This document shows, in pieces, positions 2,765 to 58,429 of a stretch of DNA of 64,000 bases; positions within the stretch are counted from its first letter, which is position 1; the number at the start of each line of letters is the position of its first letter. Position numbers and translations under genes: made by a program. Under the pieces are notes generated by a model. That model had not been told where the DNA came from and made no database searches. It saw only the letters and a program-made list of their open reading frames with translations. This DNA comes from Panax quinquefolius (taxonomy: Eukaryota > Streptophyta > Magnoliopsida > Apiales > Araliaceae): the NCBI GenBank assembly GCA_020205615.1, contig CM035170.1, positions 34,844,123 to 34,908,122 of the forward strand, in the 5' to 3' direction.

Positions 2765-3904
2765 TTACCCTCGTAGACCAATACAAAGAATGCTGCTCCA
2801 ATTGTCGAGGGAAAAGTCCTGGTGGACTGTAGTGATGGAGGGGCTGTCATCGTCCTCCTTCTCCCGAATGATGGCCATTACGTCTGGGGCATATCTGTTT
2901 GTATGTTCATCATGGACAATGATGCGTATGCCTGACATCATTCTGACGATGTCTTGCTTAATTCTTTGTTCCTCCTCTTCCACTCTGGGGTCTGGAACAA
3001 AGACTTCTTTCTCCTTTACCGGTATCGGCTTGGGAAATAACATAACCATTATGCTGGTTGGCACCTTTACAGGTGGTTGTGTGGACTCAGGATTTATAGG
3101 TGGAGATAAACGTCGTGTAACTGAAGCTGGAGGAATTTGATGATGCTTATGAGGATTCCTATGATTGGAACTGGCAGAATAGCCCAGTCCAGCTTTACCA
3201 GTTTGACTGATCACTGAAATCGGGTGCGTAATACCCTGATGACTTTTACCCAGCCCTTGTCTCGGCTGAGGACCCAAAGATATCATTTCTTGAGTAAACG
3301 ACATTACTTCGAAATAAATCTTGGGTGTGAGAGGTGGCGACCCAATAGGGTGGTAGTGAGTGTTGCTCACCTCCAGGGCATGAAAACTGACCGGCTCAAC
3401 TTCTAAATTGAAACTGATGAGTGGTATGTCACTTTGTTTAAAACATTCCGGTTCAACGTTGACTGTGACTAGGCTATCATTAATGATGTATTTCAGTTGC
3501 TGATGAAGAGTGGAGGGGACAACCCCAACCATATCAATCCATGGTCTTCCCAATAGCAGGTTATATCCTGAATCTATTTCGAGCATGTGAAAAGATACGC
3601 AGAATGTATAGGGACCAATTTTGATTGGTAGTTCAATCTCTCCGACGGAATTCTACTGGGCTCAATCGAAAGCTTTAATAATTGTATGGCTACTTCGGAT
3701 AAGTTTGAGATTGATGTTCATCTTCAGTAAAGTAGCATAAGGACAGATACTCAAAGACAAGCCTCCATCTGTCAAAACTCCAGCTAGCATATACCCGGAG
3801 GACAAAACCACAATGTGTAACGGCTTGCAATGACTGGTCCCTTCGGGCGGTATATCATCATCAGTGAAAGATATCACATTGTTGTTAAAAATGTGATCAA
3901 CCAA
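2765..3904 (-). pseudogene. Aspartic protease of A followed by a G-patch-like motif
   Basis: This is a retropepsin-like protease that would cut the Gag-Pol polyprotein. The active-site region reads AGVLTDGGLSLSICPYATLL (about 3795-3740), where Tat elements usually have DGGSS, so the first Ser is changed to Leu. A stop or frameshift at about 3660 precedes the C-terminal half, GYNLLLGRPWIDMVGVVPS (about 3570-3515), the usual flap-to-end region of Tat proteases. Further on, PRQGLGKSHQGITHP and AGLGYS (about 3270-3165) resemble a glycine-rich G-patch, placed between protease and RT. The tail is acidic (VEEEEQRIKQDIVRMM). B has the same order. Confidence 0.8.
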
Positions 3905-7152: not shown

Positions 7153-7972
7153 CCTGTCGATGTCGGGATTTTTATTTATCCCTTTTCGTTACTTGTTCTT
7201 TGGTGTTCTCATGTTATGTGAGATTTGTTTGAAAAAGGTCCGATATGTATCATGTCGACGATGGACTGTTAAGAGTCGCCAGTTGGTTTTTTATATGGTT
7301 GTACCAACATAACCGAGAAAAGGTTTGCACATTGACCCAGTGATGTGACACTGCTAAACGGATCGGTGAAACCGAGATTTATTAGGGTTCGGGGACTTGA
7401 TTAGGTGGAGTGAAGGTGTTAGGCACCCCCCGACATCCGTGTTACCACGGTGACTGCCACTTTTTAAGAAATTGTTATATGAATGTGTGTGTGTGTGTGT
7501 GGATCAATGTGTAATTATTTGGAAGTAGTGTGAGGCCTTGTTCGTACCTATATACATAGGGTTTGAATTTGTGTAAAAATTCAGTTTTAAACAAGATATG
7601 GCAGTGATGTTTTATAAAAGAGGTTTTTCAAACCCTTGTTCTCAATAGTAATTGAGACCTTTTAAACTCCCATTTTATTAAGTGTTCAGCTTGATTGTTT
7701 TATTTTTTGAGATGCAAAGCATCTTTGATAAAATAATATACAAAATAGTGCCGAACTCCTCGTGGGTATGAAAAACATCTGAGGAAATTCAAACACCATG
7801 AATAAATTTACAAGCTGCTTACAGCTGGAAATGTCCATCACGGGAATCGAATCTAGATCCAGTAAACTGAATCTCTGATCACATGATTCCTAGGCTCACA
7901 TGATGCCGCAATTGATAATAAAGCAATAAGTAGGTATATATATAAAAGCTGTAAATATATATATACAGACAT

Positions 7973-8130
7973 GATCAACCACCACGAAGCACCTCCATGG
8001 GGGATCAGAAATGTAAATAAAGCTATAAAAGCAATCAACCGCCACGAAGTAAACTCCAGGCGGGATGAAAAGTAAAGAAAGTTGTAAAGACGATCAACCG
8101 CCACGAAGTAAACTCTAGGCGAGACTAAAT
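7973..8130 (-). repeat. About 60-bp tandem repeat inside LTR A
   Basis: Three units starting at 7973, 8033 and 8092 share the core ATCAACCGCCACGAAG followed by a variable AAACTCCAGGCGG. B has related units at about 50940-51055. Confidence 0.8.
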
Positions 8131-8131
8131 G

Positions 8132-8133
<2 letters not shown>

Positions 8134-8170
<37 letters not shown>

Positions 8171-8239
8171 GCAGTAAACTCTCCAAATGTAAAATCCAGG
8201 CTAATCGAACAAAGTTTGACACACAGTTCATATATACAA

Positions 8240-8281
<42 letters not shown>

Positions 8282-8347
8282 GAAAACAAATAAACGCTCC
8301 AAACCAAAGTCTAGGCTCAATCGATGCATAACTCGATAATGTTAGTC

Positions 8348-8394
<47 letters not shown>
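8134..8394. repeat. TA and TG microsatellites in LTR A
   Basis: Long TA runs at about 8134-8167 and 8241-8280, and a TA run passing into a TG run at about 8350-8394. Frames across them translate only to low-complexity YIYI or HTHT runs and are not genes. B has TA runs at comparable places (about 50755, 50850 and 51058). Confidence 0.95.
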
Positions 8395-8396
<2 letters not shown>

Positions 8397-8706
8397 AAAC
8401 TGAAATAAAACCACGGACCGAAGTCCGGGAAAACACACGCAACACGACTCTCAACGTGAATAATAATGTGTGCAAAGATGAAGAGAAAGGCTTTAAAGTG
8501 TGTGAGAAGGCTTACAGTGGGCTGCCAAAGAAGACTTCTATATCTTTAAAGGGATGAACACTCGGCTCTCGCCGGTACAAAAAGTAGCTATATGTGAGCT
8601 CACAAGTGTTTATAATGAGAAAGCACTCAGTATAGGGTGAGTACAGAGAAAATTGGACAGGACTTTCTCGCCTTTCTCTCTTACAAAATGGCCACCCCAA
8701 GCCCTC

Positions 8707-8714
8707 TATTTATA
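8707..8714 (-). promoter_or_regulatory. TATA box of LTR A
   Basis: TATAAATA on the minus strand, about 950 bases from the LTR start. The same block, CTCTATAAATAGA, is kept in B at 50431-50443. It probably marks the U3/R boundary shortly downstream. Confidence 0.75.
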
Positions 8715-9137
8715 GAGGGGGGAGCCACAGTGTACTACTGCTGCTGGGCAGCAGATGTACTGCTTGGTGACCTGAGTTGCCCTAGGCTTTGCGTCTCTCG
8801 CTCTGTCTCGAAGTACGTGCATGCATGCACTATAATGTCCACTCAAACTTTCAGAATTTCAATCCGGGCATCCGACTGAGGTATGTAAGACCTATTTCGG
8901 ACCGCCTTTGTCGAGAGTTACACAATAACATGGGACTAGAGGTTATACGAAGTCAGGAAGATGGGACCATGCCCTCCGGTCTTCAAGCTTCAAATTCTAT
9001 CCGTTGTCCTGGGTAATAGTCACTCGGGATTGGACCTCCTTGGTTCTTGTGGGACATTTCTGTGTAGAAATGTATGTATGAAATGTTGATACGGTGCGAT
9101 GTGGCGTGAAGGTGGCAAGATGACAACTTTTCCCCTC

Positions 9138-9608
9138 ACCGGGGTTATCGCCGGTTTGGGCTGATAAAGCAGACGGTGCTCAGGGTTGTCTCTGAGATTG
9201 GACTATTGCAAGTGTTGAAGGTCCTCAGTGTCATCTCTAAGGTGTGCCTGTCTTCCCAGTGTTATCTCTGGGTCTTGTACTGAGTGCCTCAGTGTGAGTG
9301 CCGAGGTTGATGCTGATTGCATTTGAAACAAGCATTTCTATGGTTATCTCCAGAACTGCACTCCTTGGGGTTATCTCCAAGGTTGGTAACTGCTACTCCC
9401 AGTGTTGGGACTAAGATTGAATATCTCGGGGTTATCTCGAGATGGATCGGTCTTCTCCAGGGGAATTTTCGGTATTGGAACAGCATGCCTCGGGGTTATC
9501 TTCGAGGTTGGAATTGATACTCTCGGTGTGTGTTCCGGGGTTGAGACTGAACTTCTGATAGTATCTGGACTGGACATGAGCTGTCTTCCAGGGTTATCTT
9601 TGAAAGAC
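9138..9608 (-). repeat. Array of short hairpins with conserved loop in U3 of LTR A
   Basis: At least nine small inverted repeats with a shared 8- to 10-base loop (element-sense AGATAACC or close) and variable stems of 5 to 8 pairs. On the plus strand: ACCGG/CCGGT at 9138-9155, CTCAG/CTGAG at 9179-9196, CTCAG/CTAAG at 9224-9241, CCCAG/CTGGG at 9255-9272, TTCT/AGAA at 9336-9355, CCTTGG/CCAAGG at 9363-9382, ATCTCG/CGAGAT at 9423-9443, CCTCGG/TCGAGG at 9488-9507, GTCTTCCA/TGAAAGAC at 9584-9608. A TCCCA/TGGGA hairpin with a 4-base loop lies at 9397-9410. Matching hairpins occur in B. Confidence 0.8.
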
Positions 9609-9665
9609 GAATATGCCCTCCTGCAATGTTAGTAACAGGTGTGTAGAAAATTTTGAGTATCTACA

Positions 9666-10051
9666 ATTTGTATAAGTATGAAATACACATATTCATTCAA
9701 GAATTGTGTATACTTAGCTTTATCATATCATATATTTTCATATGAACAAAATCAAATGAAGTAAACAATTTGCCCAACATAAAGTATAAAGAAGAGTTAG
9801 AAAACTTGCCTTATACGTCTTCTAGTCTTTTACTTTAATTCAGTCTTTATATGTTCTACATGATATAATCATAATAACACATTAATTAGCCACAGAACAA
9901 TCTTTGTATATTGGTTTACACTAACTTATCTTCCTTTCAAACATATCTTGTTTGAATCGTTAAATTTATAGCGTTCGTTAAGTTCTTTATCGCTTACTAC
10001 GGCTTTTTGACGTTTAAACGTCATACCTCTTTATCATACACTAACGTCTAA
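9666..10051 (-). repeat. LTR H, segment 4 (chromovirus-type, minus strand)
   Basis: AT-rich sequence with no coding potential. It is contiguous in type with 11012-11805 once the MITE is removed. It is taken as the most distal visible part of old LTR H because each insertion between it and 39414 has TSDs that let the flanks be rejoined. The left end is cut by element A. Assignment to H rests on continuity, not on a domain. Confidence 0.5.
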
Positions 10052-13430: not shown

Positions 13431-13481
13431 TGTCAGGAATAAGCATGTGAATGCTATTCCTATTTATATATGATTTGATTA

Positions 13482-13526
<45 letters not shown>

Positions 13527-16488
13527 GAATGAATAATATGCAAGTATGCTTGAGTTAAGAAAAGCTGTAAAGTCCTTTGATAGATAATAGAAATATGTGT
13601 ACAAGGACTTAGAATGAATTGATCAAATATGTTAGGTTGATCCTACATAAGCAAAACAGCTTTGTAAAGTCCTTAAAAAAAATGATGTACAAGGACTATA
13701 AATATAGAAAGATCAAGCTTGTTAGGTTGATCTTATGATGTAATAGATAGACTAGTCTGATCGTCGAGCACTGCACCAGAAGTCGTAGTCTGCCAAGTGA
13801 GTCAAGGTTAACTCGAGAGCTAATGAGACAGTATAGAAGTATGCAAGATAGTAGATCTCGGAGTTCGTAGACTGCTAGGGGAAACGAAAAATGATCGTAG
13901 TGTATCGAATATAGATTCCTCAGGATCGTAGTGTGCTGAGGAAGTCATGTTTAGAATTGTAGAGACAGCCTGTACGAGCCGACCAGTCATCTGCCGAAGC
14001 TAAGACAGAAAGGTAGACTACACTCAGAGTCGTAGAGTCTACTGATGCCAAAGCCAAGTCAAGGATCGTAGATCACACTCTGAGTTTGTAGAGTCTATTG
14101 ATTACATGTAGAGATCATAGTTAAGCAAGATCAGATGAAGACAACAAGCACAAGGCAGAAATCGTAGTGTCAAGATCTGATCTCAGGATCGTAGTGTCTG
14201 CACAAGCCGAAGCTGAATCGTAGAGTGCAGAACTACGATCTAAGAAGAAGTGGTCACAATGCCAAGGATGAATCGTAGAGCATATACGGTTCTCAACAAA
14301 TGAACACTCCTAGAATATCCAAAGGAATGAAGCCTCTGGTTCAAGCTGCAAGCTACATCCAAGGAAACCAGAGAGCACTCAACGAATGGCATGCAGGCTA
14401 GCAGAAGATCTAAGCACCAACCCAATTAGCATCAAGATTGAGTTGTAAGGCCATTCATGATGAAGTCTTCCACGAGGAGATCCAAAGAAGACTTCAGAAG
14501 CTGACTAAGGAAAGTTAGCTAATGCAGTAGCTATCAAGTGGACAGAAGACAACGATCTTAGAAGCAACCAAGATCGTAGTGTTTGCCAAACAAAGAAGAA
14601 ACTAATGGAAGGTGAACCGAGGTACTGGTCAGCCTCTAAAGAGCAAGGCTAAATTGATTAAGTGCAGGGTCAGTTCATTGATGATAAGTGAACGAGAGAT
14701 CACAAGGAGAAAGCAAATTTGGGCGCTTTACAAATCAAAGTGTCTTGATATTCAGAAGGGGACCAGAGCAAGGAATTAGGCAATCAATATCTGAGAACAG
14801 TCGAAGCAAATAGAAGTATTGAAGCACTGCATAATACAAGGAAGAGGTGTTCTACATTGAAGATCCAATCAACACTCTTCAAGATCGTAGTGTTAACCCT
14901 ACCAGTCAATGAGCAACACTCAACAAGACACTACGATCAAGTCCTTGAAGACGTGCATCAGAATCGTAGAGTCCGAATAACTGAAGACTGAAGCAATAGC
15001 AAAGGTTCAATCTGAAGGGTAATATTCGGACAAATGCTTATTGAGAGCATCGATGCAATAGGACAACCTCTGATCGAGAAATCAGAAAGAGGTCATAAAG
15101 TCTTCGACCTGCATAAGACATTAAAGTGATACATCTGATAGGGTAGGTGAAACAGTAGACTGCAGCGTCAGAAGAAAGTATGACAAGTCACATCAAGCAG
15201 TCTACCTCAAGCAACTTGAGATCTATGAAGAGATTTGAATAGCCTTCAACGGCTACTTTCCAACGGAAGGATTGGGAAGGAGTATAAATGAGGAAGAGCT
15301 TCAAAGATCAAAGGTTGCTGGAGTTGCCGAGTTTGGAGAGAAGGTGGACTGATCTAAACCATGTGAAACATTGAGTCCGAAGGCTCACTCTACGATCCAC
15401 CAAGAACACTCAGAAGTTAGATAAAGAAAGAAGTAGAAGTGTGAGTTCTACTATGTAGAAGTGAGAGTTCTACTACATGAAGAGTGTTCAGAACTGCCGA
15501 GAGAAAGAAGAGCATCATGACATCTTGATGTCCATCATGGGAAGACTCTAAGTACAATAGAGAAGAGCCTACAGTCATCTTAGCAAGTCCATCATGAGAA
15601 GGCATCAAGTAGCAGAAGGGAGATCACAAAAGCCATCTTGGTGTCAAGCATGAGAAAGCTTCTAAGTACCTAATAGAAGAGCCTACAGTCAGCTTGGAAG
15701 CCTCTCATGTGTAGTCATCAAGTACCAAGGAGAATGATCTTCAAGGCAGTTCAACAAGGGGTTTTCAGAAGTGGTTGAGTAACCAAAGAAGTTGAGCATC
15801 ATGCAAAACTCAGCTGAACTTCAAGGATGATCAAGCCAAGCTGCTAAGTATAGAATTTGTTCAAAGCTGGAATAGCAGCTCAACATCGACTCCAACAACA
15901 ATAAACAAACAACTCAACAAAGCCAGGGCCTGAGGGGTCCTTGTCCAGAGGGACTAAATGAAGCAGGGCCAGAATGGTCCTTGTTCGAAGGGACTAAACA
16001 AAGCAGGGTCAGAAGGGTCCTTGTCCGGAGGGACTAAACGAAGTTCCAAGGCTGCTGGCCTTGAAGAGTTCTTAGTGAACTAAAGTCCCAAGGCTGCTGG
16101 CCTTGAAGGAATCTTAGTGATTCTGTGGTGCGCCCTTCCTTAGTGGAAATCTGCGCTAGTTGAAAGCGTAAGAGTGGATTAGGAGCTTGAGTCTTGAACC
16201 ACTTAAAACCCTTTTGTCTTTTACATTATGTCATTTACATTATGTACTATAATTATTATGTATGTTTTTAACGCTACAACTAAACTCACTCTACTGAACA
16301 ATGTATGTATGATTATGAATATATCAATGAAGGGGATCTTTTACTTATTCCGCTGTGCTTGAAAAGATTCTTATGTTTGTCATATATTAATTATGAACAA
16401 TATAATATAAACTAGAAAAGTATTTGAAATAAAAAGGATCTATTCAACCCCCCCCTTTTAGATCTATTGTGCCCTCTGGGAACTAACA
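13431..16488 (+). repeat. 5' LTR of L
   Basis: Starts TGTCAGGAATAAGC and ends GGGAACTAACA. Same ends and length as M (3066 bases, inverted). Contains a TA run (13487-13523), about 15 copies of an ATCGTAGWGT-like motif (13780-15400), a TATA box and a short tandem block GGGTCCTTGTCCRGAGGGAC (about 15925-16035). Near the 3' end is a C9 run (16448-16456). Confidence 0.9.
15283..15290 (+). promoter_or_regulatory. TATA box of LTR L
   Basis: TATAAATG in GGGAAGGAGTATAAATGAGG. M keeps it on the minus strand at 56636-56629. Confidence 0.6.
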
Positions 16489-16490
16489 AT

Positions 16491-16505
16491 TGGTATCAAA
16501 GCAGG
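16491..16505 (+). other. Primer binding site of L (initiator Met)
   Basis: TGGTATCAAAGCAGG, two bases after the LTR end. It matches the standard plant initiator-Met site TGGTATCAGAGC with one change. Confidence 0.85.
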
Positions 16506-47125: not shown

Positions 47126-48787
47126 TGATAAGTGATATTTTTACTCACTTATTGTATAGTAATCCATGCGAATTGTGCCCACCTCGAGTACATTTCATTT
47201 TATTTTAGTTGTATTTCACGTTATTTTGCATTGCATATACTTAAAACTCCTTTTGGTGAATAAGTGCGTAAATCGGCTTCATTTTGGTGGAATTCGAGGT
47301 ATCGGTGGCGGATGCGTGAAGGCTAGTTGAAAGCGAGGATGTGCATGGCATGGGGTACAATGAGGCATGGAAATCAAGCAAGCATGAGGATTAAAGCAGC
47401 AGCGGCAGCAGCAAAGGTGAAACTAGACTCGAGAATTGCAGGACACAGTCACAAGGACAAGACAAAGGCGGACATCAAGCCTCATGCGTGAGTGCAGAGC
47501 TTTACATGGAAACCTTCACAAGTCAGCCTCAGCGCCTCATGAGGCGAGGACGCGACACCGGGAGACTCAAATTTCGCGCCGCAAGGCATGCATGCGCCGC
47601 CATCGCATGATCACCGTAAGAGCAACGTCTGGTTTGGTCTGAACCTATTGTGAGTCTCGCGGTCGCGATCCAGAAAAACTAGGGACGCGCGCGATGCTGA
47701 TGCTATAATTTGTTTTATTTTTATTTCTCAACTTAATTATGTGTAATGCGGTATAAACGATTCTGACGTGTGTCAGAGAAAATGAGACCTGACTTTTATT
47801 ACGTAACTTTCATAGTAGAAACTAGGGTTTACACCTTAAGAGAGATTCCAACATAGGAGAAAGCCATAACGTCTATTTTTCTCTACTTCTTCTTGGAGAT
47901 CTCTGTCATCGTGGATATTAATTATTGTTTATGGGAATTCTTTGTGGATTCAATAGTTAATCATTGGTTTTTATTCAACGATTGGGTTTGATCATTCTAA
48001 CTTTCTTCCATTCGTTTATTTATTGATCATGTTTAGCCTTGATCCCATAATGGTTTTTGGTTCCGCCATGAACTAAACTCCATTATGGGATCCTAACGGA
48101 TTGTAATATGTAATTTGGTTGCACATCTAAATGTTAGATTTGTTTTGCATATCATATGGATCATCTATCATGGTTGGTTTGTATGTATGAATGACCGATA
48201 ATCTTCATGTTAGTATTTGTATGGAATTGAAATGAACATATGAATATGGATGAAATCATGATAGCATCTGAATATGGGGATTGCATATTTTGTGAAATGA
48301 GATAGAATATCTTTGTTTTGCCGTATGAGCTAGAATAAGGGTTGTGCTTAAAATCAATAGGATTGCAATTGCGCATAGGAATATGGTAATTGTGATGGTA
48401 TTGGTGATCATATAGATTCTAACATCTGTAGATGATATGTGAGTTAGTTATAGTGCATTGGAAAATGGTTATAACTCGCTTTTATGCCCATGGCTATTAT
48501 CCTGTGATATGTGAACACTTCTTGCATGACATATGGCGATTGAATGAAATATTGAATGAAGTTAGGATCCCATTGTTTCCGCATTATATTTAGTCCATTT
48601 ATACTCTTATTTTTAGTTGGTAATCATAATTAGTTTAAATCAACAATTAAGTCCATAGTCTTAGCATATAAATATAGTGAGTTAATTAATGCATAGTAGT
48701 CTAAAGTTAACACTTTCTCTGTGGGATTGATACTTTACTTACTCTGTATTACTTGTTGACCCGTGTATACTTGCATGAGTTAGAGCT
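47126..48787 (+). repeat. Unclassified 1.6-kb repeat R, copy 2
   Basis: Inserted in E's gag between the basic tail and the zinc knuckles. Starts TGATAAGT with a hairpin (ATAAGTGA loop TCACTTAT, 47128-47152) and ends GCATGAGTTAGAGCT. Same family as 20915-22526. GC-rich core at 47400-47700 (CGCGCGCGATG, GTCTCGCGGTCGCGA). A frame of 68 codons in that core is not supported. Contains a CTCTGTGGGATTGATACTTTAC block (48718) of a kind common in plant LTR-element leaders. Confidence 0.75.
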
Positions 48788-49496
48788 CTTTTATAAGAAC
48801 TATAAAAGAGGCAACAGAGAACGACCACCGGTCGTATGTTATAAATGCGGGAAAGAGGGACACATCAGCCCAAATTGCCCACAACAATTTAAGGTGTGTT
48901 ATAACTGTGGAAAGGGAGGTCATATAGCTCGAGATTGTCCTGTAGCGAAACCAAGTGCAGCGGGGATGGTGACTCCAAAGGCTGTCCCGGACAAGTCAAA
49001 GTCGGTGGTTCTTAGAAGAGCGTTTGTCGTGACTGCCCAAAATACGAGGAACCCAAACGAGGTGATCACGGGTAAGCTAAACATAAACTCTTGTGATGTT
49101 CATACATTATTAGATACCGCTTCTACCCATTCTTTTATCTCTCCTGCTTGTGCTCAACGTTTGAACTTGACCCCTGAGGAATTAGACTTTGACTTATCTG
49201 TTGAAACTCCATTAGGTGAAACTTTAATTACATCCATGGTTTATAAATCTTGTTTGATTCAAGTTGAGACCATCACATTACTTGTCGATCTTATTTCTTT
49301 GAAAATACTTGCATTTGATATGATTTTAGAAATTGATTGGTTAACTAATCATCATGCCAAAATTAATTATTTTTGTAAGGATGTTACTTTTCATATTCCT
49401 AACCAACCTGTTATGCGAATTCAAGAAACTAAACCACTAAAGTCAATCACTGTCATATCAAGTCATAAAGCCATTCGTTTATTGAAAAATTGATGT
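48788..49496 (+). pseudogene. Zinc knuckles and protease of E
   Basis: Continues gag after R2: two intact CCHC boxes, CYKCGKEGHISPNC (48838-48879) and CYNCGKGGHIARDC (48898-48939). Then comes the protease entry NEVITGKLNINSCDVHTLLD and the active-site block DTASTHSFIS (about 49116-49145), where the family has DSGATHSFIS; Gly to Ala in the catalytic triplet should abolish activity. The end reads FDMILEIDWLTNHHAKINY (usual ILGMDWL). The frame is open from 48753 to 49493 and is cut by the insertion of B before RT. Confidence 0.88.
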
Positions 49497-49559
49497 CAAG
49501 TGTAGAAACTCAAAATTTTCTCACACACACACCGACATCAGGGAGGGCGATTAAATCTT

Positions 49560-50040
49560 TCAAAAGATAACCCCGGAAGATAGCTCATGTCCATCCGGAT
49601 ACTACCGGAAGTAAATGCAAATTTTTACGGAACACACACCGGGAGTATCAGTTCCAACCTCGGAGATAACCCCGAGGCATGTAGTTCCAATACCAGAAAT
49701 TCCACCGGAGAATTGAAGGCTGATTCATCTCGAAGATAACCCCGAGATATTCAGTCTCAGTCCCAACACTGGGAGTAGCAGTTACCAACCTTGGAGATAA
49801 CCCCAAGGAGTGCAGTTCCGGAGATAACCCCACAAATGCTTGTTTCAAATGCATGCAATCAGCTTCAACCTCGACACTCACACCAAGGCACTCAGTACAA
49901 GACCCGGAGATAACATCGGGAAGACAGGCACACCTCAGAGATGACGCTGAGGACTTTCAACACTTGCAGTAGTCAAATCTCAGATATAACACTGAGCAAC
50001 GTCTACTTTATCAGCCCAAACTGGAGATAACCACGGTGAG
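49560..50040 (+). repeat. Hairpin array in U3 of LTR B
   Basis: Plus-strand (element-sense) hairpins: CCTCGG/CCGAGG at 49658-49677, ATCTCG/CGAGAT at 49727-49748, CCTTGG/CCAAGG at 49789-49808, CCCGG/TCGGG at 49903-49920, CCTCAG/CTGAGG at 49933-49952, CTCAG/CTGAG at 49979-49996, ACTGG/ACGGT at 50020-50037. The loops are mostly AGATAACC/A (AGATGACG, ATATAACA). They match the array in A, with stem differences that mostly keep pairing. Confidence 0.82.
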
Positions 50041-50433
50041 GGGGCAAAGTCATTATCTTACCACCTTGACGCCACATCACACCGTCTCAACATTTCATAC
50101 ATACATTTCTACACAACAATGTCCCACAAGAACCAAGGAGGTCCGATCTTGAGTGACTATCACGCATGACAACGGATACAATTTGAAGCTTGAAGACCGG
50201 AGGGTGTGGTCCCATATTCCTGACTTCGTACAACCTCTAATCCCATGTCATTGCGTAACTCTCGACAACGGCGGTCCGAAATAGGTTTTACATACCTCAG
50301 TTAGATGCCCGAATTGCAATTCTGAAAGTTTGAGAGGACATTATAGTGCATGCGTGCACGTACTTTGAGATGGTGGGACTCGCAAAGCCCGGGGCAACCT
50401 GGGAAGCCATATGTACACTTGCGGCTCCCCCTC

Positions 50434-50441
50434 TATAAATA
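50434..50441 (+). promoter_or_regulatory. TATA box of LTR B
   Basis: TATAAATA in CCCTCTATAAATAGAAGG, conserved with A. Confidence 0.75.
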
Positions 50442-50842
50442 GAAGGCTTTGGGTGGCCATTTTATAAGAGAAAAAGGCGAGGAAGCCCTGTCCAATTTGC
50501 TCTGTACACACCCTACACTGAGTGTTTTCTCATTTTAAACACTTGTGAGCTCACATATAGCTTCTATTTTGTACCGGCGGGAGCCGAGTGTTCATCCCTT
50601 TAAAGATATAGAAGTCTTCTTTGGCAGCCCACTGTAAGCCTTCTCACAAACTTTAAAGCATTTCTCTTCATCTTTGCACACACTATTATTCACGTTGAGA
50701 GTCGTGTTGTGTGTGTTTGCCCGGACTTCGGTCCGTGGTTTCATTTCAGTTTGTATATATATATATATATTTTTATATATGGACTAACATTATTGAGTTA
50801 TGCCTTGATTGAACCTAGACTTCGGTCTGGAGCGTTTACTGC

Positions 50843-50874
<32 letters not shown>

Positions 50875-51054
50875 CAACTGTTGTCGGACTTTGTCTGATG
50901 AGCCTGGATTTTACATCCGGTGCGTTTACCGATTATATATATATATATTTACGTTTAATCTCGCCTGGAGTTTACTCCGTGGCGGTTGATTGCTTTTACA
51001 ACTTTATTTACATTTCTGATCCCCCATGGAGGTGCTTCGTGGTGGCTGATCATG

Positions 51055-55130: not shown

Positions 55131-55363
55131 TTCAACATTTGGTTGATCACATTTTTAACATCAATGTGATATCTTTCAGTGAAGATGATATACCACCCGA
55201 AGGGACTAGTCATTGCAAGCCGTTGTACATTACGGTTTTTTCCTCTAGGTACATGCTAGCTGGAGTTTTGATAGATGGAGGGTCATCTCTGAATATCTAT
55301 CCTTATGCTACTTTGCTGAAGATGAACGTCAATCTCAAACGGATCCGGAGTAGCCATACGATC
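55131..55363 (+). pseudogene. Protease of B, first part
   Basis: The active site DGGSS is intact here (AGVLIDGGSSLNIYPYATLL, about 55259-55318), unlike A. The frame is open until RSSHTI, where solo LTR M interrupts it; reading resumes in phase at 58435. Confidence 0.85.
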
Positions 55364-58331
55364 TGTTAGTTCCCAGAGAGCACAATAGATCTAGAAGGGG
55401 GGGGGGGGGTTGAATAGATCCTTTTTAATTCAAATAATTTTTCTGGTTTATGTTGTATTGTTCATATTTAAGTATATAACAAACATAAGAATCTTTTCAA
55501 GCACAATAGAATAAGTAAAAGATTCCCCTTCATTGATATATTTATAATAATACATACATTATTCGTTGGGTTAGTTTAGTTGTAAGCAGTTAGAACATAC
55601 ATAGCAGTTATAGCAGTTATTGACATAATGTAAATGACATAATGTAAAAGACACAAGAGATTTTAAGTGGTTCAGAGACTCAAGCTCCTAATCCACTCTT
55701 CTGCTTTCAACTAGCAGGATTTCCACTAAGGAAAAGTAGCACCCTGAATCTCTACGATTCCTTCAAGGCCAGTAGCCTTGGGACTTTAGTTCACTAAGAA
55801 CTCTTCAAGGCCAGCAGCCTTGGGACTTCTCTAGTTCCCTAGGAACTCTTCAAGCCCAGCAGGCTTTGAACTTCATTTAGTCCCTTTGGACAAGGACCCT
55901 TTGGTCCTGCTTTGTTTAGTCCCTCTGGACAAGGACCCTCTTGGCCCTACTTCATTTAGTCCCTCTGGACAAGGACCCCTCAGGCCCTGGCTTCGTTGAG
56001 TTATTTGTTTGTTGTTGTTGGAGTCGGTGCTGAGCTGCAAAGATGTCTTCATGCTCTGAACATCTTCTATCCTTAGCACCTTAGCTTGATCATCCTTGAA
56101 GAGTAGTTGAGTGTTGCATGATGCTCAGCTTCTTAGGTTGCTCAATTACTCCGGATGACCCCTTGATGAACTACCTTGAAGATCATTCTCCTTGGTACTT
56201 GATGGCTGCACATGAGAGGCTTCTAAGATGACTGTAAGCTCTTCTGTAAGGTATTTAGAAGCAGTCTCATGCTTGACACCAAGATGGCTTTTGTGATCTC
56301 CCTTCTTGCTACTCGATGCCTTCTCATGATGGACTTGCTAAGATGACTGTAAGCTCTTCTCTATTATACTTAGAGTCTTCCCATGATGGACATCCAGATG
56401 GCATGATGCTCTTCTTTCTCTCGGCAGATCAGAACACTCATCATGTAGTAGAACTCTCACTTCTACATAGTAGAACTCCCACTTCTACTTCTTGCTTGAT
56501 CTGACTTCTGAGTGTTCTTGGTGGATCGTAGAGTGAGCCTTCGGACTCACTATCACTCGGTTGGATCAGTCCACCTTTTCTCCATTATTACACAACTCCA
56601 GCAACCTTTGATCTTTGAAGCTCTTTCTCATTTATACTTCTTCCCAATCATTCTGTTGGAAAGTAGCCATTGAAGGCTATTCAAATATCTTCACAGATTT
56701 CAAGTTGCTTGACATAGACTGCTTGATGTGACTTGTCATACTTTTTCTGACGCTGTAGTCTACTGTTTCACCTACCCCGTCAGATGTATCACTTTACTGT
56801 CTTGGGTAGGTTGAAGACTTTATTTCTTCTGATTTCTAGATCAGAGGTTGTCCTTTTGCATCGATGCTCTCAATAAGCACTTGTCCAATATTACCCTTGA
56901 TTGAACCGCTGCAATGCTTCATCTTGGTATTCGAACTCTACGATTCTGATGCATGTCTTCAAGGACCTGATCGTAGTGTCTTGTTGATTGTTGCTCGTTG
57001 ACTAGTAGAGTTAACACTACGATCCTGAAGAGTGCTGATTGGATCTTCAATGTAGAACACTTCTTCCTTATATTGTGCAGTGCTTTAATACTTCTGTTTG
57101 CTTTGACTATTCTCAGATACTGATGGCCTAATTCCTTGCTCTGGTCCCCTTCTGAACATAAAGACACTTCAGATTTGTGGCACGTCCAGCTTGCTTTCTC
57201 CTTGTGATCTCCCGTTCACTTATCATCAAAACTGACCTTGCACTTAATCACTTTAGCCTTGCTCTTCAGAGGCTGACTAGTATCTCGGTTCACCTTCCAT
57301 CAGTTCCTTCTTTGTTTGGCAAACACTACGATCTTGGTTACTTCCAAGATCATTGTCTTTTATACACTTGATAGCTACTGCATAAGCTGACTTTCCTTAG
57401 TCAGCTTCTGAAGTCTTCTTTGGATCTCCTTGTGGAATACTACATCACGAATGGCCTTACACCTCAATCTTAATGCTGATTGGGTTTGTGTTGAGATCTT
57501 TGTAGTGCCAACCAGAGGCTTCGTATCTTTTGATATTCTGGGAGTGCTCATTCATTGAGAACCGTATCTGCTCTATGATTCTGACTTAGCATTGTGAGCA
57601 CTTCTATTGGAGTCATAGTTTTGCACTCTACGATTCAGCTTCATCTGTGTAGACACTACGATCCCGAGATCAGATATTGACACTCTACGATTTATGCATT
57701 GTGCCTGTTGTCTTCATCTGATCTTGCTCGACTATGATCTCTGCATATAATCAATTGTCTCTACGAACTCAGAGTGTGATCTACGATCCTTGACTTGGCT
57801 TCGACATCAGTAGACTCTACGACTCTGAGTGTCGTCTACATTTCTGTCTTGGCTTCGGCAGATGACCTGGCTCGGCTCGTGTCGGTTCTCTCTCTGATTC
57901 TCAACACGACTTCCTCAAAGACACTATGATCCCAAGGAAGCTCTTCTCGATACACTACGATCCTTCTTCGTTTCCCCTGGCAGTCTACGAACTCTAAGAT
58001 CTACTATCTTTCATACTCCTATTCTGCCTCGATAGCTCCTGAGTTAACCTTGACTCACCTGGAAGACTACGACTTCTGGTGCAGTGCTTGACGATCAGAC
58101 TAGCCTATCTATTACATCATAAAATCAACCTAACAAGCTTGATCTTTCTATATTTATAGTCCTTGTACATCATTTCTTTTTAAGGACTTTACAAAGCTGT
58201 TTTGCTTTATGTAGGATAAACCTAACATATTTGATCAATTCATTCTAAGTCCTTGTACATATATTTCTATTGTCTATCACAGGACTTTACAGCTTTTCTT
58301 AATGCAAGCATACTTGCATATTATTCATTCA

Positions 58332-58378
<47 letters not shown>

Positions 58379-58429
58379 TAATAAAATCATATATAAATAG
58401 GAATAGCATTCACATGCTTATTCCTGACA
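55364..58429 (-). repeat. Solo LTR M, same family as the LTR of L
   Basis: 3066 bases, minus-strand orientation, TGTTAGTTCCC (plus) to TTCCTGACA. Flanked on both sides by CGATC (55359-55363 and 58430-58434), a perfect 5-base duplication. A G run near 55397-55409 mirrors the C run of L, and a TA run lies at 58337-58375. No internal region, so LTR-LTR recombination removed it. TATA at 56636-56629. ATCGTAG/CTACGAT motifs are frequent at 56930-58080. Confidence 0.94.
56629..56636 (-). promoter_or_regulatory. TATA box of LTR M
   Basis: TATAAATG on the minus strand, aligned with 15283-15290 of L. Confidence 0.55.

Follow-up and report, generated by a model that had tools for sequence, protein, structure and literature searches.

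The BII boxes of Tnt1 and other U3 enhancers of plant Copia elements are short tandem repeats that serve as cis-elements, in which they resemble the array described here; we know of none with covarying stems around a constant loop. Closer are the repeated motifs (RM) in the LTRs of Sireviruses (Ty1/Copia). According to the accessible part of their description (PMC2829016), these motifs are palindromic, with a CGG-CCG core in 12 of 13 elements, and are present in at least eight copies per element and up to 32 in one. In the same account, 117 of 127 LTR copies are placed upstream of the TATA box in the LTR's upper half, and elements with an ENV gene have additional copies in the linker that precedes the 3' LTR. 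The identity of the motifs is commonly above 85% and falls to 66.5% in the loosest element, the centre is short, and the array forms a CpG island as determined by CpGplot; that part of the text terms the motifs Sirevirus-specific and calls for reporter tests (PMC2829016). A palindrome cluster of maize Sireviruses (2016, Genome Research; as related in the available portions of PMC10760457 and PMC5311732) likewise lies in the LTR cis-region and has strong predicted secondary structure, but is built, unlike the array here, from a single palindrome sequence (CACCGGAC...GTCCGGTG). Arrays of palindromes in the LTRs of plants have been interpreted either as enhancers at the DNA level or as sources of small RNA. 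The available parts of PMC3601003, which treats hairpins near the PPT and in R regions, and of PMC12786077, which treats packaging, mention no such array, and the literature searched, of which some sources were accessible in part, yielded no Ty3 or Tat counterpart and no array-type cis-acting RNA of a plant retrotransposon.

Here we analyzed a window of 64,000 nucleotides from Panax quinquefolius (contig CM035170.1), in which two related elements, A and B, carry an array of short hairpins in the U3 region. The two systems share a set of eight or more palindromes between LTR start and TATA box (here 14 units in subfamily S1, and 10 and 11 GATAAC-type units in S4 and S5, as defined below) and a linker copy before the 3' LTR (here at 25 of 84 loci). 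The CGG-CCG core of the Sirevirus motifs is present, by commonest letters, in 9 of the 14 S1 units, the others having CAG/CTG, TGG/CCA or CCCA/TGGG. The systems seem to differ in that the whole palindrome is repeated in Sireviruses, whereas here the arms differ from unit to unit around an 8-nt centre that is mostly constant, and in that the host there is a Copia element, whereas here it is an element with RT_RNaseH domains, labelled Tat in an earlier sequence-only reading of the window. That reading knew of no described element of this kind; the Sirevirus palindromic motifs occupy the same position in the LTR (PMC2829016). Palindrome arrays in Sirevirus LTRs are known; the new observation is an array with a mostly constant loop and varying arms in a Ty3-type element, which suggests that such arrays extend beyond Sireviruses. 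Because its arms vary while their pairing is kept, the array is a natural test of whether nucleic acid acts in folded form, and the thousands of copies in this one genome make the question answerable by counting and probing.

Host elements and LTR landmarks

Sequence comparison within the window showed that A and B are 87% identical over about 6 kb, the identity stopping at 9668 in A and at 49498 in B. The U3 of A (8706..9665, minus strand) extends from the LTR start TGTAGATACTC at 9665 to a TATA box CTATAAATAG at 8706-8715, and the U3 of B (49501..50442, plus strand) from the LTR start to the same box at 50433-50442; the boxes were placed by eye and lie 930-950 bp from the LTR start in both elements. 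The identification of these LTRs is supported by the relatives, 30 of 84 loci having the polypurine-like GATAAAGAGG shortly before the LTR start, as expected for 3' LTRs.

A Pfam scan of four ORFs assigned RT_RNaseH (PF17917, PF17919) to one ORF of A and a G-patch domain (PF01585) to another (2765-3586, minus strand), which has the gag-side ORF on one side and the RNase H ORF on the other; the remaining two ORFs had no match. Element A is treated here as a putative Ty3-type element. Searching with a Tat/Athila PBS sequence gave 0 matches, and a search with the gag-side protein found four relatives. Among viral contigs, an ORF of element B had no relative, and the unit pattern occurred in three stretches only, with a single match in each.

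Directly upstream of the start of B (49501) lies an ORF (48753-49493) in which zinc knuckles and a protease-like stretch were recognized by eye, and the arrangement is consistent with an insertion of B just behind this ORF. In addition, about 3.1 kb of B (55356-58429) is missing from A at the matching point 3681-3685 (with a 5-bp overlap) and recurs in the window at 13431-16496 with 86% identity. The stretch is probably a nested mobile element.

Architecture of the array

The U3 regions of A (minus strand) and B (plus strand) each contain 14 hairpins, u1 to u14, mostly in steps of 27-34 nt. Nine of these units have loops of the GATAAC or GATGAC type, while u2, u3, u5, u7 and u10 have stems around other loops. 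We scanned both strands of the window for AGATAACC, allowing one mismatch, and obtained eight hairpin-flanked loops in A (9138-9608, minus strand) and seven loops in B; among the other AGATAACC matches in the window, four have stems of at least five pairs. The ninth GATAAC-type loop of A, that of u12 (AGATGACA), is further from AGATAACC than one mismatch. In copy A, all nine GATAAC-type loops stand between arms that pair over at least four positions, G.U included. The sequence-only reading had described about nine mini-hairpins with a loop that hardly changes. The array is real and larger than described, nine being the number of its GATAAC-type units out of a total of 14.

In A, where all units lie on the minus strand, u1 (9583..9608) forms 7-8 pairs around a GATAAC-type loop and has a T.G pair that is common in S1. 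The stem of u2 (9554..9569), with a 6-nt loop, is broken in copy A; u3 (9522..9539) has the loop AACACACA and one mismatch in this copy; u5 (9457..9472), with a non-GATAAC loop, is also broken in it. GATAAC loops are present in u4 (9488..9507), u6 (9423..9443) and u9 (9336..9355), the last having the least regular stem of the family. Unit u7 (9397..9410) has a 4-nt loop, and an alternative, slightly longer pairing with an 8-nt loop and one G.U is possible for it in S1; in S4 and S5, the unit that follows u6 and precedes u8 has a loop of 8 nt. The arms of u8 (9363..9382) are CCTTGG/CCAAGG, and those of S3-S5 are CCTCGG/CCGAGG. Further on, u10 (9287..9306) has an intact stem with one G.U around the loop CACTCACA, u11 (9255..9272) the loop AGATAACA, and u12 (9223..9242) one G.U, followed by the hairpins u13 (9179..9196) and u14 (9138..9155). 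Element B carries the same 14-unit array at 49556..50037 (plus strand).

The units have a single orientation: in the first 640 nt of 84 U3 regions, 504 loops were sense-oriented and one antisense. Compared with one another inside the same copy, GATAAC-type units agree at 0.565 of arm positions (1946 unit pairs) and at 0.711 of the positions of the 18-nt unit; the corresponding loop identity of 0.893 is inflated, since the units were found by their loop. GC content is 0.48 in A and 0.46 in B. The CpG observed/expected ratio averages 0.70 in the 84 arrays and 0.87 in the remaining U3. A search of the LTR (7300-9700) against Rfam 15 at E <= 1 returned four matches below the gathering threshold, all at 8212-8287 in an AT repeat and none in the array.

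Genome-wide abundance and subfamilies

The unit pattern CCNNGGAGATAACCCCNNGG has 5279 exact matches in the genome (3.57 Gb, 821 contigs), of which 2568 are on the forward and 2711 on the reverse strand; the reversed pattern, used as a control, is absent. Seventy loci were taken from the first 100 listed CCNNGGAGATAACCCCNNGG places, one (L103) being dropped because of its overlap with L102. The first 30 of the seventy all had a match of more than 100 nt to the LTR of A, and all sampled loci matched at least one of seven U3 queries, five of these queries having been drawn from the sampled set itself. An alignment of 62 copies, with a mean pairwise identity of 0.887, comprises A, B and 60 related arrays (L020-L079).

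By clustering 84 U3 regions, we obtained the subfamilies S1 (33 members, including A and B), S2 (25), S3 (5), S4 (7, from two clusters) and S5 (4, including a cluster with a single member), and omitted 10 U3 regions in smaller clusters. Thirteen S1 members (L005-L019 minus duplicates) are best matches to A or B and hence a non-random sample. S4 was enlarged to 27 copies by the 20 best matches to L105, and the S5 alignment (n = 9) consists of L093 and eight of its matches. Of 57 matches to the S5 array, 17 were additional pieces that accompany a main match and mostly measure about 190 nt, which suggests array growth through duplications spanning several units. S4 has 10 and S5 has 11 GATAAC-type units in steps of 31-36 nt; steps toward the 3' end are longer (42-45 nt), and S5 has a single step of 53 nt.

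Arms pair with their own partners

In the 62 copies, pairing between the arms of the same unit over the inner four positions was 0.802, compared with 0.503 (sd 0.045) when arms were re-paired between units; in 200,000 re-pairings, no value as high as 0.802 arose. Among the 14 candidate partners, the own one ranked first for seven units when five positions were considered and for six units with four positions. Own-arm pairing was 0.745 in S1, 0.770 in S2, 0.758 in S4 and 0.806 in S5 (33, 25, 27 and 9 copies), and re-paired arms gave 0.526, 0.521, 0.573 and 0.608, respectively; the observed value was reached in 0 of 100,000 re-pairings in each subfamily, which, the subfamilies being related, do not amount to four independent tests. 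The closest approach was in S2, where the top re-pairing gave 0.769 against 0.770 observed. The motif search for the subfamilies included one false unit in S1 and one in S2. When the partner arm was slid by 1-3 nt, pairing in these four subfamilies fell to 0.19-0.47. Over 593 unit instances from 84 arrays, pairing was 0.793 against 0.707 (sd 0.005) with right arms shuffled within position classes, classes which mix subfamilies.

The subfamilies also differ at both arms of a pair. Nine units (u1, u6 and u8-u14) were compared by their commonest letters at positions 1-6 where found in at least two of S1, S2 and S4. Two positions differ on both sides: position 3 of u8 (TA in S1 and S2, CG in S4) and position 6 of u10 (CG in S1, TA in S2). 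Position 4 of u1 (S1), position 6 of u6 (S2), position 4 of u9 (S2, with letters present in 0.80 and 0.68 of copies) and position 5 of u14 (S4) are in a G.U state, and position 1 of u10 and of u12 is mismatched in S2, these being inherited breaks of end pairs. No A.C state was found among the differing positions of this comparison. A contrary state occurs in S5, with C.A at position 4 of u9 in seven of nine copies, and u9 is loose in all groups; the S5 unit in place of u7 has T.G at position 3 in five of nine copies. An earlier tally of positions 1-5 (seven G.U, one A.C) is not relied on, as it included the small S3 (5) and S5 (4) and used a unit detector that tolerates G.U; from this tally comes a G.T at position 2 of u3 in S2, a unit outside the nine compared.

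Loops have changed as well. In S1, u10 forms a 6-bp stem around CACTCACA, where its S5 counterpart by order and spacing has AGATAACC. In S1 and S2, u7 combines a stem of 5 bp with a loop of 4 nt, and at the corresponding place S4 and S5 have a loop of 8 nt. In these two units the stem outlives the loop. It is well supported that arm pairing persisted through changes in the sequence of the arms, in several loops and in the length of some of them, so that the fold seems more important than the particular letters. The claim of the sequence-only reading that stems keep their partner while their sequence varies is borne out by the re-pairing between units and by the two positions that differ between subfamilies, and it extends to far more than two copies.

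Neutral decay in young copies

Stem changes in the 62 copies follow a decay of the methylcytosine type, with rates of 0.11-0.20 at CG, 0.10-0.15 at CHG and 0.005-0.024 at CHH sites. Changes were counted at 76 stem pairs selected for a Watson-Crick or G.U combination of their commonest letters (one G.U, in u1), so that the selection itself is no test of pairing; position 3 of u9, where C and A are commonest, was excluded. Among changes that affected one side of a Watson-Crick pair, 359 led to A.C, 219 to G.U and 91 to other states; over 105 arrays, the numbers were 604 for A.C and 457 for G.U. There were 46 double changes (33 Watson-Crick) against 49.6 expected if the two sides change independently, and hence no excess of compensation in these copies. 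Young copies decay neutrally, without compensation or G.U retention after insertion. At sites other than CG and CHG, variation was 0.0205 in stems (78 sites), 0.0236 in loops (107) and 0.0428 in spacers (171), stems and loops thus varying half as much as spacers (p = 0.012 and 0.004).

Young copies decay mostly by changes of the deamination type; the comparison between subfamilies is the informative one. The excess of compensatory changes that was to be sought across 20 or more LTR copies is absent from the 62 young copies, and compensation is seen between subfamilies. Two G.U stems, those of u1 and u12, had been taken as a hint of folding as RNA. The T.G of u1 is the commonest state (54 of 62 copies) and that of u12 a minority one (8 of 62). 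As A.C exceeds G.U in both counts given above and there is no surplus of double changes, the G.U pairs of copy A are no proof on their own; the argument is weak in this form, and single-copy G.U pairs were rejected as proof of RNA folding.

Evidence on the strand of a possible folded form

Variants present in at least four copies were examined for clustering among nearest neighbours in 105 arrays (the 62 copies plus 43 of S1 and S2). At p<0.002, the clustered one-sided variants were five G.U, no A.C, three other and one that restored a Watson-Crick pair, and the clustered two-sided variants were two Watson-Crick and one other. At p<0.01, six G.U and two A.C one-sided variants were clustered, and the unclustered variants (p >= 0.05) included 31 G.U and 40 A.C. 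The Fisher test gave p 0.020 for 5:0 against 31:40 and p 0.14 for 6:2 against 31:40. In a control of spacers and loops, inherited changes were 19 C>T plus A>G and 15 G>A plus T>C (unclustered, 51 and 33), and compared with this 19:15 ratio the 5:0 lean is not significant (p 0.14). The evidence that inherited one-sided changes lean to sense-strand G.U is thin, the changes being few in number; such a lean would fit pairing in the sense RNA. The nearest-neighbour test replaced a mean-distance test after the result of the latter was known (at p<0.01, two A.C, no G.U, one two-sided Watson-Crick variant and one two-sided mismatch); the mean-distance test was judged unfit because copy age dominates the distances, a change marking S2 in 25 copies scoring p 0.03.

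Predicted folding gave modest MFE z-scores of -2.40 for the sense and -1.93 for the antisense strand of A and -2.87 for the sense strand of B. Local folding of the sense strand was 133.1 compared with 129.5 in shuffled sequences, being above shuffles in 23 of 30 copies, and the designated pairs had a mean local pairing probability of 0.63 in the 30 copies. By the same local measure, the antisense strand folds more than the sense strand in 30 of 30 copies.

One further hairpin stands outside U3. A linker hairpin, GACTTTGG-TGATAACC-CCAAYGTC or close to it, was found with a regular expression upstream of the LTR start at 25 of 84 loci, and is detectable only at loci that hold a 3' LTR; 18 of the 25 also have the PPT-like motif. 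Its distance to the motif-placed LTR start is 253-284 nt in 19 of 22 listed cases. Linker loops similar to TGATAACC were seen in several loci, among them L092, L093, L096, L105 and L106, and most of them are 253-284 nt upstream of the LTR; L105 has a further linker hairpin, ACTGCTGG-CGATAACC-CCAGCATG, and that of L092 has an 8-bp stem.

Proposed mechanism and alternative explanations

The likeliest mechanism, to which we give a probability of about 0.45, is that the U3 array acts as a row of hairpins in the sense RNA. The array is a tandem set of 10 to 14 short inverted repeats, mostly about 33 nt apart and all in one orientation, mostly around the asymmetric loop NGATAACC, and its working form would be the hairpin in sense RNA. 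RNA is the likeliest strand, given that inherited changes lean to the sense strand, that the loop is asymmetric, that the units share one orientation and that a copy stands in the linker. In the genomic transcript of an LTR element, U3 is present only at the 3' end, so that the 3' end of the genomic RNA would display a row of loops, plus the linker hairpin, which has a similar loop and precedes the 3' LTR by about 257 nt. A loop-reading protein, perhaps Gag or a host RNA-binding protein, might bind there and help packaging, stability or export; both the partner and the step are guesses. The fuller proposal, a multivalent 3' RNA signal of 10-14 hairpins with a shared loop and covarying stems, recognized by a loop-binding protein and joined by one more hairpin upstream of the PPT, is quite possible and is put forward tentatively.

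The array could instead be a DNA-level cis-regulatory array in which each palindrome or GATAA centre is a transcription factor site, as has been proposed for the Sirevirus motifs and for further LTR enhancers, a reading that we consider possible, though on balance doubtful. Its position between the LTR start and the TATA box, shared with the Sirevirus palindromes, counts for it and against the RNA reading. Also in its favour are the CGG-CCG core that 9 of the 14 S1 units have in common with the Sirevirus motifs and the GATAA of the loops, which matches I-box/GATA sites. A transcription factor reading fixed half-sites, however, does not predict arms that vary in step, which a folded strand does: the arms differ between units and yet pair with their own partner, and the spacing of the half-sites changes (4-nt and 6-nt loops) while the stems stay. 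GATA or I-box sites would be expected to have GATAA everywhere and in free orientation, whereas 5 of the 14 S1 units are without GATAAC and the orientation is single, 504 to 1. Nor do the units share a helical phase. At 10.5 bp, R was 0.47 in S1, 0.64 in S2, 0.06 in S4 and 0.18 in S5, and at 11 bp 0.17, 0.43, 0.78 and 0.60, with a null 95% level of 0.50; S2 exceeds the null at 10.5 bp and S4 and S5 at 11 bp, and a common phasing was rejected for want of a shared period. A DNA role may also exist beside the RNA role, the array sitting where LTR enhancers sit, and both may hold.

Pairing could also have been kept without function, if an ancestral hairpin was tandemly duplicated and its symmetry occasionally restored by template switching in the course of reverse transcription or replication (quasipalindrome correction). 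This would fit the tandem spacing near 33 nt, the unit number that differs between subfamilies and the prevalence of C/T and G/A changes at methylation-prone sites, which hit both palindrome arms alike. It is nevertheless unlikely, because such correction should sometimes invert the loop, which was seen in inverse form once against 504 sense loops, because double changes were not in excess in the 62 copies, and because loops are constrained like stems outside CG and CHG sites, which correction of the arms does not predict. That the array is a host-side source or target of small RNAs, with structured U3 RNA recruiting silencing as suggested for maize Sirevirus palindromes, is very unlikely, since it would explain a host response and not the keeping of pairing by the element, and since stems of 5-8 bp are far below the known length of Dicer substrates; what speaks for it is the excess of small RNAs on maize Sirevirus palindrome clusters in the accessible part of PMC10760457.

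Hairpins in R/U5

The R/U5 region, which is present at both ends of LTR-element RNA, contains a second hairpin series in B (window 50720-50985, LTR+1226 to +1470). A raw count gave 33 hairpins with TTCG or TTTG loops in 43 loci, 25 of the 33 at +1200 to +1450, and one unit of this type is present in A near 8413-8430. The hairpins of B have TTCG or similar loops and differing stems, with AT repeats between them; examples are CGGAC-TTCG-GTCCG, CTAGAC-TTCG-GTCTGG and CTGGAT-TTTAC-ATCCGG.
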